From contig DUPT01000056.1 in the NCBI GenBank assembly GCA_012838225.1, forward strand, positions 1 through 64,000: 64,000 nucleotides of DNA. The letters run 5' to 3'. Origin of the DNA: Tissierellia bacterium. GTDB lineage: Bacteria; Bacillota; Clostridia; Peptostreptococcales; Acidaminobacteraceae. Below the pieces are notes generated by a model. That model did not search any database, was not told the origin of the DNA, and worked only from the letters and a program-made list of their open reading frames with translations. Of this stretch, positions 5,194 to 51,115 are shown piece by piece (positions within the stretch are counted from its first letter, which is position 1; the number at the start of each line of letters is the position of its first letter). The position numbers and the translations under genes were made by a program.

Positions 5194-6358
5194 TCTGTTT
5201 GCTGATATCGGTCATCGCTCCCTCAATAAATACGGCGAGCAGATCTGCGGCGACCATGTCCAGATCCACACCATGAAGGACGGCTCGCCGGTGGTGGTGC
5301 TGGCCGATGGGCTCGGCAGCGGCATCAAGGCCAATATCCTATCGACCCTCACCTCACAGATCATGTCGACGATGCTGGCCAACAATCTGCCGCTTGAGGT
5401 CTGCCTGGAGACGATGGTCAAGACCCTCCCCATCTGCGAGGTCCGAGGCATCGCCTATTCGACCTTTACGGTGATCCGTCTGCTCCAAAACGAGGAGGCC
5501 GAGATCCTCCAGTATGATAATCCGCATGTCATCTTGCTGCGAAATGGCCGACATGTCGAATTCCCCAAGGAAAAGCTGGAGATCGACGGCAAGATCGTCT
5601 ATAAGTCAAGACTCTATATCCATGAAAACGATGTTTTTATCATGCTCAGTGATGGGGCGATCCACGCCGGTATCGGCTGTGAGCTCAATTACGGCTGGCA
5701 ACGCGATAATATCATCGAGTTCGTTCAGAACATGTATATCGCGGGGTTTACCGCCAAGACCTTGGCCACCATTGTCACCGATCAGTGCAATAAGCTCTAT
5801 GGCTTTAAGCCCGGTGATGATACGACCGCCTGCGTCATCCGGATGAGACGCCGCAAGGCCGTCCACCTGATGATCGGACCACCGTCTGATCCGGCCAGCG
5901 ATGAGCTGCTGATGGAGGAGTTTATGAGCGGCCCGGGCAAAAAGGTGGTCTGTGGCGGAACGACCGCCGAGATCGCCGCCCGCTACCTCGATAAAGAGAT
6001 CGTACCGGTCAGTGATTATCTCGATCCCGAGATCCCGCCGATCGCCAGCATCGAAGGCATCGATCTGGTGACCGAGGGCATCCTGACCGTCAATCGCTGC
6101 CTGGTCTATGCCAAAAGCTATCTCGAAGACAATGCCCACTACTCGACCTGGGCCTATAAAAAGGATGGGGCCTCCATGCTCTCGCGCATCCTGTTCGAGG
6201 ATGCCACCGATATCCATTTCTTTGTCGGCAAGGCCGTCAACCCGGCCCACCAAAACCCCGACCTGCCGATCGATTTCAGCATCAAGATGCGACTGGTCGA
6301 GCAGCTGAGCGATACCCTCAAGGAAATGGGCAAGCGAGTCACTGTCCGCTATTATTAA
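5186..6358 (+). CDS. SpoIIE-family (PP2C-type) serine/threonine phosphatase
   Basis: The 390-residue protein starts with a PP2C/SpoIIE catalytic domain. Metal-binding aspartates are seen in CGDHV (D23), ADGLGSG (40-46), MLSDGAIHAG and PGDDTTACV. The C-terminal 170 residues carry no domain I can name. There is no membrane segment, unlike sporulation SpoIIE. The start ATG lies inside the stop region of the sensory hydrogenase, which argues for coupled synthesis. Such phosphatases usually act on anti-sigma-factor antagonists or related phosphoproteins. No such substrate gene is in this operon, so the target is unknown. Confidence 0.85.
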   Translation: MTSLFADIGHRSLNKYGEQICGDHVQIHTMKDGSPVVVLADGLGSGIKANILSTLTSQIMSTMLANNLPLEVCLETMVKTLPICEVRGIAYSTFTVIRLLQNEEAEILQYDNPHVILLRNGRHVEFPKEKLEIDGKIVYKSRLYIHENDVFIMLSDGAIHAGIGCELNYGWQRDNIIEFVQNMYIAGFTAKTLATIVTDQCNKLYGFKPGDDTTACVIRMRRRKAVHLMIGPPSDPASDELLMEEFMSGPGKKVVCGGTTAEIAARYLDKEIVPVSDYLDPEIPPIASIEGIDLVTEGILTVNRCLVYAKSYLEDNAHYSTWAYKKDGASMLSRILFEDATDIHFFVGKAVNPAHQNPDLPIDFSIKMRLVEQLSDTLKEMGKRVTVRYY

Positions 6359-6369
6359 GGAGACTGATC

Positions 6370-7791
6370 ATGAGTCGATTCGATTCACACGTCCAATCGG
6401 TCAAGAATGATATCTTGACCGCCGTCTGCAATTATGCCCGCCAGGGAACATTATACGAAAACATCCACGAGATCCCAAAAGAGATCATGCCCAAGGGTTC
6501 GGCCTCAGCCCGCTGCTGCATCTACAAGGGGCGAGCGATCCTGTCAGAGCGGGTGGCTTTGGCCATGACGACTAAAGGCGCCTATGATCATGTCATCGAG
6601 GTGATCGATATCGCCTGTGATGATTGTCCCGAATCAGGCTATGAGATCAACGAAAACTGCCGCGGTTGCCTGGCTCACCGCTGTATCGATGCCTGCCCCC
6701 GAGGTGCCATAGAGATCGTGAACAAACGAGCCCATATCGATAAGGACAAATGCATCAACTGCGGCAAATGCCAGCAGGCCTGCCCCTTTTCGGCCGTGAC
6801 CAACCGAGTGCGACCGTGTGAGCAAGCCTGTAAGATCGGTGCCATCTCCAAGAGCCCGACGGGTGAGGCCATGATCGATCGCGACAAATGCATCAGCTGT
6901 GGTGCCTGCGCCTATCAGTGTCCCTTCGGTGCCATCTCTGACCGCTCGTTTATCTCTCAGACGATCGAGCTTTTAGAGGACTATAATAAGACCGGCGAGC
7001 ATCCGGTCTTTGCCCTGGTCGCTCCGACGATCGCTTCTCAGTGCACCGAGCATACCCTGTCACAGGTGATCGCCGCCATCAAGGTATGCGGCTTCCATGC
7101 CGTCATCGAAGCTGCCCTGGGTGCCGATATCGTCGCCAATCTCGAAGCCAAGGAATGGGACGAGAAGGGCTTTTTGACCAATTCCTGTTGCCCCGGCTAT
7201 GTCGACTATGTCGAGCGGTTCTTTCCCGACATGGCTCAGCATATCTCACACAATCCATCACCGATGGTCGTGATGGGACGGATCCTTAAAGAAAAGCACC
7301 CGGGATGTCGAGTCGTCTTTATCGGACCGTGCACCGCGAAAAAGCTTGAGTTTCAAAAGGAGCAGTGGCGAGACGCCATCGATAATGTCATCACCTTTGA
7401 AGAGCTCCAAGCGATCTTTGACAGCTACGAGGTGGATTTCGATCATCTCGATGAGGGACTGCTCGATCAAGCCTCCTACTTCGGCCGGATCTTTGCCCGA
7501 AGCGGCGGCTTAACGACCGCACTCCATCAGGCCCTGATCGAAAACAAGCTCGAGACCTCGAAGCTAAAGCCCCTCATCTGCGATGGCATTGAGGAATGCC
7601 GGATCGCACTCCTCAAGGCCTCCAAAGGCGTTCTAAAGGAGAACTTCATCGAGGGCATGGCCTGTGTCAGCGGCTGTATCGGCGGGGCCGGTAATGTCAC
7701 CCACGGGCCCAAGGAGCGGGCTCAGGTCGACCGCTACGCCTCGTCAGCCATGGAGAAAACCATCCACGAAGCGATCCGAATCTTTGACTAG
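6370..7791 (+). CDS. [FeFe]-hydrogenase, multi-ferredoxin form (group B-like)
   Basis: The 473-residue protein has N-terminal Cys clusters for several [4Fe-4S] centres (C97/100/105/109, C128/131/134/138, C174/177/180/184, plus C150 and C154), followed by the catalytic domain. H-cluster motifs are TNSCCPGY (270-277), GPCTAKKLEF (319-328) and EGMACVSGCIGGAG (428-441), close to catalytic enzymes but with Tyr for Trp in the first. It probably interconverts protons and reduced ferredoxin with H2 in the cytoplasm. It is the last gene of the rex operon, 11 nt after the phosphatase gene and directly before a strong terminator. The HydEFG maturases are not in the window. Confidence 0.9.
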   Translation: MSRFDSHVQSVKNDILTAVCNYARQGTLYENIHEIPKEIMPKGSASARCCIYKGRAILSERVALAMTTKGAYDHVIEVIDIACDDCPESGYEINENCRGCLAHRCIDACPRGAIEIVNKRAHIDKDKCINCGKCQQACPFSAVTNRVRPCEQACKIGAISKSPTGEAMIDRDKCISCGACAYQCPFGAISDRSFISQTIELLEDYNKTGEHPVFALVAPTIASQCTEHTLSQVIAAIKVCGFHAVIEAALGADIVANLEAKEWDEKGFLTNSCCPGYVDYVERFFPDMAQHISHNPSPMVVMGRILKEKHPGCRVVFIGPCTAKKLEFQKEQWRDAIDNVITFEELQAIFDSYEVDFDHLDEGLLDQASYFGRIFARSGGLTTALHQALIENKLETSKLKPLICDGIEECRIALLKASKGVLKENFIEGMACVSGCIGGAGNVTHGPKERAQVDRYASSAMEKTIHEAIRIFD

Positions 7792-44316: not shown

Positions 44317-44508
44317 ATGAAACTACACCACAGCCTAAGCCGTTTGGCTCACCATCGTGAGACCGATTTCCTAAGTCGGCATCACCGTCGTCAACACGTT
44401 TATCGTGACAGACTGAGGCGAGCCATTAATCCGACGGAGCTCGAAAAGGAGCTCCCCGAGATCCGGACCGCCTTTCGCCAAAGCCTGAGTGGAGGAAGCT
44501 ATGTTTGA
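44317..44508 (+). CDS. Small basic His/Arg-rich protein (63 aa)
   Basis: The frame has a strong CAGGAGGTAAGC site before ATG and ends inside the start of the next gene (8-nt overlap), which supports translation. The sequence is rich in His and Arg (LAHHRETDFLSRHHRRQHVYRDRLRRAIN) with a helical C terminus (PTELEKELPEIRTAFRQSL). No family recognised. It could be a nucleic-acid-binding partner of the XRE protein or merely a coupling ORF. Confidence 0.55.
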   Translation: MKLHHSLSRLAHHRETDFLSRHHRRQHVYRDRLRRAINPTELEKELPEIRTAFRQSLSGGSYV

Positions 44509-45361
44509 TATGACAGACATCGGCAAAAAGATTGCCAAACGAAGAAAAGAACTCAATCTGACCCAGGTCGAACTGGCGGATCAGCTGCTCGTGAGCTATC
44601 AGGCCGTCTCCCAGTGGGAGCTCGGTAAGAGCATGCCCGAGCTCTCCAATCTGACCCGTTTAGCCGATATCCTCGACATCCCGCTGGATGAGCTCCTGGG
44701 ACAAAAGTCCTCCCGGGTGGTCGATCAGGTGATCAAGGAGGAGCCGCTGCCCGAAGACGACCTGATCGAGGCTGCTCCCTTTATCAAGCCCCAAGCCATG
44801 GAGGGTCAACTCCGAGACCGGATCATCAACAGCGCCTCACTCATTTCGTTGGCACCATTTCTTGACTCGAGCACGCTCATGCGACAGATCGAGCGAGGAC
44901 CGGTCGATTCAACCACCCTGATCGCTCTGGCGCCTTTTTTGGATGAGGAGCATCTCAGTCGGTTATTGGACGAATTGATCCAAGGGGAGGTCTCGACCGG
45001 CCAACTGATCGCCTTGGCTCCGTTTGCCTCAAGCAGCTCCTTGGCCCGTCTGATCGAGCGATCGGCCGCTCGGATCAGCGGCACTCAACTGATCGCTCTG
45101 GCTCCTTTTCTAGAGTCGGAGGATCTCGGCCGGATCGTGCAGCAGGGAAAAATCAAGGATCTTCAGAACCGCTGGATCCTGACCGCCCTGGCACCCTTTA
45201 TCGATCAGGCCGATCTGACCCGCTTGGTCGAACAGGATGTCACTGAGCCCGTGACCGACGATGTCGAATTCATTTCAGACGAAGCCGACGATCCCAGATC
45301 AGACGACAGCCTCGAGGGCCTGCTCGAAAAACTGAAGCACTTTCTCAAGTCGGACTCCTAG
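44501..45361 (+). CDS. XRE regulator with six LAPF-type repeats
   Basis: Residues 5-66 are an XRE helix-turn-helix (IGKKIAKRRKELNLTQVELADQLL...QAVSQWELGKSMPELSNL). After a linker come repeats of 26-30 residues with a core of LIALAPFL followed by a charged helix with L-R-LIE. The APF tripeptides end at 94, 120, 146, 175, 203 and 233. The C terminus is acidic (EADDPRSDDS) and ends in a Lys-rich helix. No membrane segment is seen. Start: ATG 44501 after GGAGGAAGC. The repeat array suggests a superhelical binding surface; its ligand is unknown. Confidence 0.8.
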   Translation: MFDMTDIGKKIAKRRKELNLTQVELADQLLVSYQAVSQWELGKSMPELSNLTRLADILDIPLDELLGQKSSRVVDQVIKEEPLPEDDLIEAAPFIKPQAMEGQLRDRIINSASLISLAPFLDSSTLMRQIERGPVDSTTLIALAPFLDEEHLSRLLDELIQGEVSTGQLIALAPFASSSSLARLIERSAARISGTQLIALAPFLESEDLGRIVQQGKIKDLQNRWILTALAPFIDQADLTRLVEQDVTEPVTDDVEFISDEADDPRSDDSLEGLLEKLKHFLKSDS

Positions 45362-45378
45362 AGTCCGGCTTTTTTCCT
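45350..45378 (+). terminator. Terminator of the XRE/LAPF gene
   Basis: AGTCGGACTC and GAGTCCGGCT pair around CTA, with one G-U, followed by TTTTTT. Confidence 0.8.
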
Positions 45379-45433
45379 GATGCTATTATTTCGCAAGCCT
45401 TTGTGGTATAAGTTAAGGTACAGGAGGCCAGCG

Positions 45434-45958
45434 GTGAACGAATCGATCCTAAGTGTCTATTGGAACAACTTTTTAAGCTTTGATTTTTTGATCTTCCTTT
45501 TGGCGGCAGTCAATGTCTATTTTTTAGTACAGAGCCTTCGTCAGTCCCAGGCCATCGCCTCGATCCTCTACCCCAAGGGCTACCTGCCCGGCGGCTGGGA
45601 ATCCTATGGGGATATGAAGAGCCATTATGATGAGGTGATGAATATCAAAGGTGAACAGACCCTGATCGAGCATCGCCGGCGGATGAATTTAAGCTACACT
45701 GTTTTCGAGAATATTACCACGATCTTTCCCCTGATGGGCCTGCTTGGCACCGTCATCTCATTGATCCCGATGGTCAAATCCATCGGCACGATCGAACAGG
45801 GCTTGTTCTTTTCTGCCCTGACCTCTACCTTTTGGGGGATCGTATTTGCTATAATATTTAAAGGCATCAATGGCTATCTCGAAGCCGGCATCACCGAAGC
45901 CGAAAAGAATATCCAGATCTTCTTGGATCGCTACTCGACCATGGTCAAAGCCCCATGA
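45434..45958 (+). CDS. MotA/TolQ/ExbB-like proton-channel protein
   Basis: The 174-residue protein has three membrane segments: about 11-35 (FDFLIFLLAAVNVYFLVQSL), about 97-117 (TTIFPLMGLLGTVISLIPM) and about 130-152 (FFSALTSTFWGIVFAIIF). The motif PLMGLLGTV followed by a Thr/Gly-rich third helix is characteristic of ExbB/TolQ. The start is GTG 45434 after CAGGAGG. It overlaps the ExbD-like gene by 4 nt. ExbB-like pumps normally power TonB or Tol in two-membrane bacteria, so the role in a presumed single-membrane cell is unclear. Confidence 0.8.
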   Translation: MNESILSVYWNNFLSFDFLIFLLAAVNVYFLVQSLRQSQAIASILYPKGYLPGGWESYGDMKSHYDEVMNIKGEQTLIEHRRRMNLSYTVFENITTIFPLMGLLGTVISLIPMVKSIGTIEQGLFFSALTSTFWGIVFAIIFKGINGYLEAGITEAEKNIQIFLDRYSTMVKAP

Positions 45959-46479
45959 AACGAAAAGGTCTCCTGATCGACCTGACATCACTGCTCGATG
46001 TCATCCTGATCGTCTTGTTTTTGGTCCTGACGACCTCAGCCGCCCAGGCCGCCACCGCCACCGAGGATATCGAAGCCATCAATCAAGAGCTCAGCCAGGC
46101 CAATCAGGCGCTGAGTGAGCAGGTGGAGGCGCTTGAGAGGCGACAGTTCGAGGGCACACCGACCGAGCAGAACTGGTATCAGGTCTACCGAGAACAGATC
46201 GGCCGGATCGAGGTCTACTTTCCGGATGATCTTCAGACCGAAGCGATGCGTCTGATCGAGCCGGACGGGACTGACAAAAAGAAGCCTGAGACAGACAACC
46301 TGGCCGACTGGCTCCAAGAAGCCATCGACGATATCGATCAAGAGGTGATCATCATTACCTTCAGCTATCGCAACGACGCCATCTTCTGGCGTGACTATAC
46401 CGGCCTGCGGGATATCTTACTTCATATCTCCGGCTCCAGTAATAAAACGATCTTCTATGAAGAAGTTCCGAGAAAGTAG
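45955..46479 (+). CDS. ExbD/TolR-like protein
   Basis: The 174-residue protein has a short cytoplasmic start, one membrane helix with Asp (LLIDLTSLLDVILIVLFLVL; D15 aligns with the essential Asp of ExbD), then a coiled coil (36-65) and an outside domain (80-174). This is the ExbD layout, slightly longer than usual. It is coupled to the ExbB-like gene (ATGA). Confidence 0.75.
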   Translation: MKRKGLLIDLTSLLDVILIVLFLVLTTSAAQAATATEDIEAINQELSQANQALSEQVEALERRQFEGTPTEQNWYQVYREQIGRIEVYFPDDLQTEAMRLIEPDGTDKKKPETDNLADWLQEAIDDIDQEVIIITFSYRNDAIFWRDYTGLRDILLHISGSSNKTIFYEEVPRK

Positions 46480-46484
46480 GCAAC

Positions 46485-46880
46485 ATGAGTTATAAAGTCC
46501 GACAAGACAAAAAAAGACGCCGTTTCCCCTGGCGGTTTTTGCTTGTGCTGATCTTGCTTCTGGCCATCTTTGGCGGCGGCATGAAGCTGGGGGTCATCCC
46601 GGGCGGACAGCACCTCTTTGGCAGCGATGGCATCATCATGCAAGAGGCCGAACCGCCGCAACAACTGCCCGATCCGATCGACTACCTGATCGTCGTTTCA
46701 GGCAATGAGGTATTGGTCGATGGTCAACCGATCGAATGGAATGATCTCGAAGCCATGATCGAACAGGCCGAAACGCACGACCGTTTCTCCCTGCAAGATG
46801 ATCAAGCCATCAAGGAGACGTATGAGCGCGTCACGGGTCTTCTGCGAAAGCATAACCACGACTACACCGAAACCGAATAA
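46485..46880 (+). CDS. Membrane-anchored protein with ExbD-like outer domain
   Basis: The 131-residue protein has a basic cytoplasmic end (KVRQDKKRRRFPWR), one membrane helix (about 17-37) and an outside domain. DYLIVVSGNEVLVDGQPIEWNDLEAMIEQ resembles the beta-strand plus helix core of ExbD outer domains. It lacks an Asp in the membrane helix. It may be a structural partner of the ExbD-like protein. The gene follows that one by 5 nt and precedes two terminators. Confidence 0.7.
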   Translation: MSYKVRQDKKRRRFPWRFLLVLILLLAIFGGGMKLGVIPGGQHLFGSDGIIMQEAEPPQQLPDPIDYLIVVSGNEVLVDGQPIEWNDLEAMIEQAETHDRFSLQDDQAIKETYERVTGLLRKHNHDYTETE

Positions 46881-49482: not shown

Positions 49483-49511
49483 AAAAAAAGGATAGGCTCA
49501 TGTGCCTATCC
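49483..49511 (-). terminator. Terminator of yqeB
   Basis: On the minus strand GGATAGGC pairs with GCCTATCC around 6 nt, followed by TTTTTTT; it overlaps the last codons of yqeB. Confidence 0.88.
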
Positions 49512-50306
49512 GGTGCTTTCATCCAGTTTCATGAGGATGGCTTCAAGTACTCCGCCGGCCAGTCCCCGACCCTTGTCACTGATGGTCTGACAGTAGACCG
49601 GCTTCATCCTCGGGTCGATATCGCCGATCTTCATGCCGCGCGTTAGCTCGACCGTCGGATGGATCCAACCTCTTAGGACCCCATTGATCTGAGCCACCAC
49701 CGGTTCACCGGCCACATGGCCCAGTACCTGTCCGGCCGATACCAACTCCCCGATCTCAAGCGTTGTCTCGAGCTTGCCATGGGCGGGGGATCGTAGGACC
49801 CGCTCGGTGGTATAGCCCAGGCTGCTGCCGGGCACATGGGTGTTCTCAGCCGCTTTTCCGTGAAAGATCAAGCGGGACAGATCATGACCGCGATTGGTCT
49901 CGATGACTACATCAGCCTGCTCTCCGGCGATGATCTCCGGTCCCAGACCGATGCTGAGCGGAGCGATGTCTTTGGTATAGTCCGGTGTCTTTTTTGACAG
50001 GGTGGCATCGATAAAGACCGCCGGTGAAAAGGCTTCTAGGATCGCCGCCTCCTGCTCGACAACGACCGGGATCTTGTCTTGTTGCCACAGCTCGACCACC
50101 TCATCGAGTGAGGCTCTGACAGCGGTGATCCCCTCAACGCTATACTCACCCTCATAGACGGCATTGCCGTAGCTGACCGTCCGACGGACCATCCTGGGCC
50201 GCTCGATCTCACTGACGATCACCCGGTAGCGGGCATTGTGCAGCTTTTGGATGATGGCCGAGGCCAGATCACCGCCGCCTCGAACGAGTACGATCTGGCG
50301 CTTCAT
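49506..50306 (-). CDS. yqeB: Selenium-dependent molybdenum cofactor protein YqeB (EF2563 family)
   Basis: The 266-residue protein has VRGGGDLASAIIQKLHNARYRVIVSEIERPRMVRRTVSY, then a middle FIDATL segment and a C-terminal biotinyl-like beta region (SPAHGKLETTLEIGELVSAGQVLGHVAGEPV). This is the EF2563/YqeB family found with SelD in cells that use labile selenium in Mo hydroxylases. Exact reaction unknown. It overlaps xdhC by 4 nt. Confidence 0.9.
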   Translation of the reverse strand: MKRQIVLVRGGGDLASAIIQKLHNARYRVIVSEIERPRMVRRTVSYGNAVYEGEYSVEGITAVRASLDEVVELWQQDKIPVVVEQEAAILEAFSPAVFIDATLSKKTPDYTKDIAPLSIGLGPEIIAGEQADVVIETNRGHDLSRLIFHGKAAENTHVPGSSLGYTTERVLRSPAHGKLETTLEIGELVSAGQVLGHVAGEPVVAQINGVLRGWIHPTVELTRGMKIGDIDPRMKPVYCQTISDKGRGLAGGVLEAILMKLDESTG

Positions 50307-51115
50307 GGCGTTTGGCGGGTCAGCGGCCGACCGTCCCGCTCGTATTTAACCATCAGCATCTCAGCCAGGATCGAGACCGCGATCTCTCCCGGTGTCTCGC
50401 CGCCGATATTGAGGCCAACGGGCGAATGGACCTGATCGAGCAGGGCCTGATCGACTCCGCGCTTGATCAGCTCATCCAGACAGTACTTGACCTTGGTGCG
50501 TGAGCCGATCATCCCGATATAGCGGACCTGCTTTGTCAGAGCCGCCTCAAGCACATCGATATCGTGGAGGTGGCCGTGGGTCATAATGACGATGCTGGCA
50601 TCTTTGGTAGGATCCATATCGCTTAGGATCTTTGCCATATCGCCGGCATGGACGGCCTTGGCTCTGGGGAAGTTTTCCCGATTAGCAAACTCCTCCCGGT
50701 CATCGATGATGATCGTATCAAACGGCAGATAGTCGGCGATGCCATACAGGGCCTGACCGACATGACCGGCCCCGCAGATGATCAGCGGGTCATTGTTAAA
50801 AAAAACCTTCACCACCACATCGGCGACGCCGCCACAGGCCATACCGAGCGCATCGGGCCGATCGGCCATCGTGAGCTCATAATGAAAGGTCTTGTTCTGG
50901 CGACGCTTGAGACACTCGGCCGCATCCCGGCGAGCGGTATGCTCGATCGCTCCGCCGCCGACGGTGCCGATCAGCACCTTGGCGTCGCGGTCGACCAGCA
51001 TCATCGAGCCCTCGTCTCTTGGCGCGGAGCCGGAAGTGGAGCTGACCATGACGAGCGCGACCTCTTGGCCCTGCTCGATCAGTTGATTCAGTTTTTGCAT
51101 GATCTGTCGGTCCAT
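50303..51115 (-). CDS. xdhC: XdhC/CoxI-family protein
   Basis: The 270-residue protein has SSTSGSAPRDEGSMMLV, GTVGGGAIE, the XdhC Rossmann part ICGAGHVGQALYGI, and ThrHisGlyHis in IMTHGHLHDIDVL. XdhC proteins insert and sulfurate the molybdenum cofactor of xanthine dehydrogenase. It is coupled to YqeB. The hydroxylase structural genes are not in this window. Confidence 0.92.
   Translation of the reverse strand: MDRQIMQKLNQLIEQGQEVALVMVSSTSGSAPRDEGSMMLVDRDAKVLIGTVGGGAIEHTARRDAAECLKRRQNKTFHYELTMADRPDALGMACGGVADVVVKVFFNNDPLIICGAGHVGQALYGIADYLPFDTIIIDDREEFANRENFPRAKAVHAGDMAKILSDMDPTKDASIVIMTHGHLHDIDVLEAALTKQVRYIGMIGSRTKVKYCLDELIKRGVDQALLDQVHSPVGLNIGGETPGEIAVSILAEMLMVKYERDGRPLTRQTP

Follow-up and report, generated by a model that had tools for sequence, protein, structure and literature searches.

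A conserved three-gene locus in single-membrane Bacillota encoding a putative ion-driven motor of the ExbBD/TolQR/MotAB superfamily

The flagellar stator aside, ion-driven 5:2 motors have mostly been studied as machines that carry energy to the outer membrane (PMC12204202, PMC12905483). A dedicated third protein of the vWA type, encoded beside TolQR-like genes, has been reported from diderm phyla (PMC12204202). The outer domain of ExbD has been found to bind the glycan chains of peptidoglycan, S. aureus sacculi among them, but no binding to B. subtilis peptidoglycan was found, so binding to the Gram-positive wall is not general (PMC10771500).

The locus described here consists of three consecutive plus-strand genes, called B, C and D, at positions 45434-46880 of the window, which is the whole stretch of 64,000 nucleotides that was analyzed, from a Tissierellia bacterium. 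The first-pass annotation had read these genes as an ExbB/ExbD-like motor set in a presumed single-membrane host, and all three were found at the place it gave. No description of such a trio in Firmicutes was found in the searchable, non-subscription literature. Sequence comparison supports the homology of the trio to the ExbBD/TolQR/MotAB superfamily well, and the trio very probably encodes an ion-driven motor of that superfamily. The reading preferred here, with a probability of roughly 0.55, is that this motor is complete and stand-alone and is adapted to one-membrane bacteria, with the heads of C and D working on the wall side.

Gene arrangement and the ring subunit

The window genome is a 1.85 Mb draft that is 97% complete and has a single copy of B. 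The start of C overlaps the end of B by 4 nt, and D starts 5 nt past C. B begins with a GTG at 45434, where an AGGAGG lies 6 nt before it, and its start residue is the same in its closest relative, a congener of the window genome that is represented by two loci (L002 and L017) belonging to one and the same organism. The coordinates of all features are collected in Table 1.

Table 1. Features of the trio and its upstream region, in window coordinates.
Feature	Position	Strand	Evidence
XRE-type regulator with LAPF repeats (ATG start 44501)	44501..45361	+	HTH_3 8.6e-16
Terminator-like hairpin and T-run at regulator gene end, before trio	45347..45371	+	fold z -4.4
Extended -10-like TGTGGTATAAG upstream of B, presumed trio promoter	45402..45412	+	conserved in congener
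B, ExbB/TolQ/MotA-type channel subunit, 174 aa	45434..45958	+	Pfam, hydropathy, family motif, hhalign
B channel core with T106 and T132	45677..45877	+	hhalign; aligned to ExbB T148 and T181
C, ExbD-like pore protein, 174 aa	45955..46479	+	hhalign, AlphaFold model, fold match
D15 codon, presumed ion-binding pore Asp of C	45997..45999	+	aligned with ExbD D25
C outer domain, about residues 75-174	46177..46476	+	fold match, TolR on top
D, third subunit, 131 aa	46485..46880	+	alignment, AlphaFold model, family presence
D outer domain, residues 65-131, ExbD/TolR periplasmic fold	46677..46877	+	VIA-align, Foldseek, hhalign

A single operon beside the LAPF regulator had been proposed at first. The trio does adjoin the regulator, but a terminator-like hairpin lies between them, so the regulator is probably not part of the same operon. 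The hairpin and T-run are also present in the congener (L002) with a different sequence and a fold z of -3.6. The TGTGGTATAAG element, found by reading the window and L002, lies 3' of the hairpin; a strict sigma-70 promoter scan upstream of B returned none. With a conserved terminator-like hairpin ahead of it and a conserved TGTGGTATAAG between that hairpin and B, the trio probably makes up its own transcription unit. Control of the trio by the LAPF regulator is possible. The hint that this regulator belongs to the system was unsupported beyond the genus, and it was rejected as a system part there, as its orthologue stands beside the trio only in L002/L017. The XRE regulator, with its repeated ALAPF motifs, is diverging fast, being 60% identical between the congeners, whose neighboring B proteins are 91% identical. 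Neither an Rfam scan nor a tRNA scan of the window found a match. Elsewhere in the window, at 49506-51115, two open reading frames resemble, on inspection by eye, XdhC/YqeB-type genes for the maturation of molybdenum hydroxylases.

B matches Pfam MotA_ExbB (PF01618) at 3.3e-11 with 43.5 bits, above the cut-off of 22.9, and its hydropathy profile has three hydrophobic segments at about residues 5-36, 90-120 and 123-145, so that the initial reading of the first gene as ExbB-like stands. The family motif is FPxxGxLGT...FxxALTST-WG, in which the FP..G.LGT and ALTST-WG blocks are invariant in a 24-row alignment (A3), as are T106 and T132, the residues that hhalign places on ExbB T148 and T181. By hhalign the nearest profile is Firmicutes MotA (97.5%, E 7e-12), followed by ExbB/TolQ (87.5%, 3.6e-6), in both cases over the channel core only. 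In a maximum-likelihood tree of 84 sequences, 56 trio B proteins fall on one side of a branch with support of 99/96; with 15 MotA rows and a small sample of 10 ExbB/TolQ rows, the tree shows distinctness, not the exact sister group. On this tree, trio B is a clade of its own, apart from MotA and ExbB/TolQ. Within it, the window B is placed among Clostridiaceae and Aerococcaceae copies (99/95) and is separated from those of its own family (99/99), suggesting either transfer or old paralogy.

The pore protein and the third subunit

The second gene had been called ExbD-like with a membrane Asp, and this is borne out by the helix of C, in which IDLTSLLDVILIVLF aligns to ExbD INVTPFIDVMLVLL with D15 on D25 (hhalign to ExbD/TolR 92.8% over the helix). 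The pore Asp is kept in all 55 C proteins. The Pfam ExbD (PF02472) score of C is 17.1, below the cut-off of 25.4. The AlphaFold model of C gives a short N-terminus, a transpore helix, a helical spacer and an outer domain. By a crude measure, the length of the stretch free of Pro or clustered Gly, the spacer spans 15-319 residues in nearly all members with a median of 62, whereas in E. coli ExbD only a few residues separate the helix from the first Pro. One C protein (L007:8770-10236) reaches 488 aa, with about 320 coiled-coil-like residues linking its membrane helix to its outer domain. The best fold match of the outer domain is TolR (5by4) with Z 8.9, rmsd 3.0 and 84 aligned residues, and unrelated folds reach Z 8.2. 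The modeled domain is probably ExbD/TolR-like but divergent, and with unrelated folds so close behind the assignment is tentative.

D starts with a basic N-terminus and one transmembrane helix; a Gly-rich, acidic linker then leads to a domain of about 67 residues at the C-terminus. Searches of PDB sequences with the C and D profiles were uninformative (ExbD matches D at E 0.64), so structure models were used. The AlphaFold model of the D domain has the order beta-beta-beta-alpha-beta-alpha-beta with a pLDDT of about 95. Its top six VIA-align matches are all ExbD/TolR (Z 10.0 to 8.0), including 8p9r (Z 10.0) and 5by4 (Z 9.7); Foldseek matches it to 8pek (E 1.2e-3, prob 1.00), and hhalign to ExbD/TolR (73%, 3e-5). 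A Pfam scan of D gave no PF02472 match. The domain is not TonB-like, and no SHLS-type His motif was seen in it. D had been described as only an ExbD-type outside domain; fold and profile bear out the type of the domain, but D has a membrane helix of its own. The gene occupies the position that tonB or tolA has in exbB-exbD-tonB operons. D is present in 53 of the 54 usable loci, 52 by profile and one more with an in-frame stop (L005); L140 has no D, and L013, which ends at a contig edge, was excluded. It is quite likely that D is an obligate subunit.

D might instead be a second pore protein, so that the B ring would enclose an asymmetric heterodimer of a C helix and a D helix, with a single ion-binding Asp and a mixed ExbD-type head dimer. 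ExbD and TolR work as dimers inside the ring (PMC12905483), pairs of unlike TolR-like genes have been reported from other phyla (PMC12204202), and the single helix and ExbD-type head of D suit such a role. The D helix, however, carries no Asp and no conserved charged or polar residue, and the C and D domains have no detectable sequence similarity to each other. In addition, four divergent loci (L145, L147, L150 and L152) carry a second D directly after the first, giving two D per one C. The second D of L152, at about +1724 from the B start, opens with a lipoprotein-like signal (TISVCGC). A lipid anchor, if it has one, would bar this copy from being a transpore subunit and would favor a role of D-type domains at the outer face. 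The tandem copies argue that such domains act there and do not fill the pore. The heterodimer is considered unlikely, and the preferred reading keeps D as a separate outer-face subunit.

Host envelope and distribution of the trio

The single-membrane setting of the host is well supported, since markers of an outer membrane are missing, two sortase matches are present in the host genome, and the carriers include Ignavigranum and Ruoffia, which are Gram-positive cocci. Omp85 was found in 0 of 21 relatives including the host and in 0 of 14 trio-bearing genomes, while diderm controls were positive. TonB_C and OmpA (PF00691) were both absent from the 97%-complete host genome, and the positive controls matched. 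The first-pass annotation had presumed a single membrane and had seen no TonB, Tol or OmpA gene; the absence of TonB_C and OmpA holds for the whole genome, and an outer membrane with TonB, which would have spoken against its reading, was not found. One same-family genome without an Omp85 match has a TonB_C match (G102:C132:672-890), which is either contamination or a real orphan TonB.

The suggestion to look for the trio in other Firmicutes gave a strongly positive answer. A total of 55 B-C-D loci were gathered by searching genome contigs and sampled genomes, and they come from Tissierellia, Clostridiaceae, Lachnospiraceae, Oscillospiraceae, Erysipelotrichaceae and Aerococcaceae. B and C are adjacent in all 55, and the order is always B-C-D. 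The trio was present in 12 of 198 sampled genomes of the window's order, 36 of 295 in the order of the Lachnospiraceae relative, 5 of 245 in that of the commensal carrier Ruminococcus flavefaciens, and 7 of 76 in the family to which Ruoffia belongs. When 398 genomes were drawn evenly over the phylum, B was returned in the window's genome only; after it, scores drop from 229 to 37 bits, mostly for MotA-length proteins. The distribution is patchy (2-12% of sampled genomes in carrier groups), which makes the function a non-essential one there. No universal co-conserved load gene was found within about 8 kb at up to 55 loci, and what the neighborhoods have in common, such as topoisomerase/ilv genes or MgtE/DegV, does not extend past the genus. 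In one Lachnospiraceae MAG, two genes that look by eye like Ser/Thr kinases flank the trio (L014:10777-11868 and 5842-6981). A mobile or phage origin was considered and found unsupported, as searches of plasmids, phages and viral contigs with B gave no match.

The patchy presence and the likely horizontal transfer of the window copy would also suit a sensor or defense device in the manner of Zorya, in which the motor would sense a disturbed envelope and pass a signal to effectors, and the kinase pair and a DUF1232-like gene near the L014 trio (named by eye) could be read in the same way. Such a device is improbable: a PADLOC search with B, C and D found no matching model at E up to 1, the surroundings of the trio have no conserved effector genes, and none of the searched plasmid, phage and viral-contig sequences contains the trio.

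The Ton systems that turn up occasionally in Clostridia have been called likely non-functional (PMC12204202), and the phylogeny of the window copy departs from that of its own family, so a left-over or transferred Ton/Tol system without function was also weighed. Protein identity to the congener is 91% for B, 79% for C and 54% for D, with dN of about 0.06, 0.15 and 0.36, respectively, and dS of about 2-3. With dN/dS far below 1, the trio genes are, by this comparison, under purifying selection. Members of the family retain the pore Asp and Thr, the gene in third position does not encode TonB, and the 55 loci, spread over several orders, are nearly all intact. A non-functional remnant is disfavored by selection and conservation as read from these sequences, and its probability is very low.

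A remnant of a flagellar-type stator (MotAB/MotPS), or a MotAB-type relative, which the first-pass annotation had named as speaking against its reading, is equally improbable: the channel core of B is closest in sequence to the Firmicutes MotA profile, but B has three hydrophobic segments in 174 aa against about 262 aa in MotA, no OmpA domain is present in C or the genome, B lies in a separate clade, and the trio occurs in genera of non-motile cocci within the Aerococcaceae.

Proposed motor and comparison with known systems

The reading of the trio as a stand-alone motor at the wall can be set out as follows. B would form a ring, a pentamer by homology. The C helices would pass through it, with D15 carrying the ion, and C would continue as a coiled-coil-like spacer to its outer ExbD/TolR-like domain. 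The outer domain of D would be held by a separate helix, or probably by lipid in the extra copy of one relative, and would pair with C, or be moved by it, on the outside. Ion flow would then turn or re-set the C/D heads, so that they grip and release peptidoglycan or a wall-bound partner. The 5:2 assembly, the rotation, the C-D contact and the cell wall as load are all drawn by analogy. Because ExbD heads can bind peptidoglycan glycans and the host shows no outer membrane, we infer that the simplest load is the wall or something bound to it; a peptidoglycan or wall-bound load is possible, at somewhat less than even odds. The original idea of an ExbB/ExbD-like motor in a single-membrane host is thus supported, while its envelope load belongs to the conjectural part. 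It can tentatively be proposed that the trio represents a separate motor class in monoderm Bacillota, with its own ring clade, an obligate ExbD-fold third subunit and mechanical work on the Gram-positive wall.

A conserved stand-alone ExbBD-type motor without an outer membrane would mean that such motors have, or have acquired, work at the wall itself. With three genes and no other conserved partner, the trio offers a small genetic system for the role of an ExbD-type head without a TonB-dependent transporter. It also matters for annotation, as the trio proteins attract ExbB/ExbD names in Gram-positives, which would imply Ton systems that are absent.

Compared with the Ton system (ExbB-ExbD-TonB), the trio has the same order of a ring protein, an Asp-bearing transpore protein and then a protein with a single transmembrane helix, a linker and a small outer domain, and the ExbD fold recurs in the outer domain of D and, tentatively, in that of C. 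In contrast to Ton, its host lacks outer-membrane markers, TonB and TonB_C, the D domain is ExbD-like rather than TonB-like, and C has a long helical spacer. Tol-Pal (TolQ-TolR-TolA) shares the three-helix channel protein and the TolR-like fold (5by4 at Z 9.7 for D and, as a tentative match, Z 8.9 for C), whereas the trio has no Pal/OmpA and no TolA-type partner gene beside it. MotA-MotB and MotPS are nearest to the channel core of B in sequence, but the trio lacks the fourth transmembrane segment, the torque-interface length and the OmpA-type peptidoglycan domain, and it forms a separate clade. ZorA-ZorB of Zorya is a 5:2 motor of the same superfamily, as the trio is presumed to be, although the trio has neither PADLOC matches nor conserved effector genes nearby. 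The vWA-type transducers likewise combine a TolQR-like motor with a dedicated third protein made of a transmembrane helix, a linker and a globular domain; that domain has a vWA fold and an SHLS motif, whereas D has an ExbD fold and no conserved His (PMC12204202). The new feature of the trio is its outside parts, namely the helical spacer in C and the separate, near-universal D.
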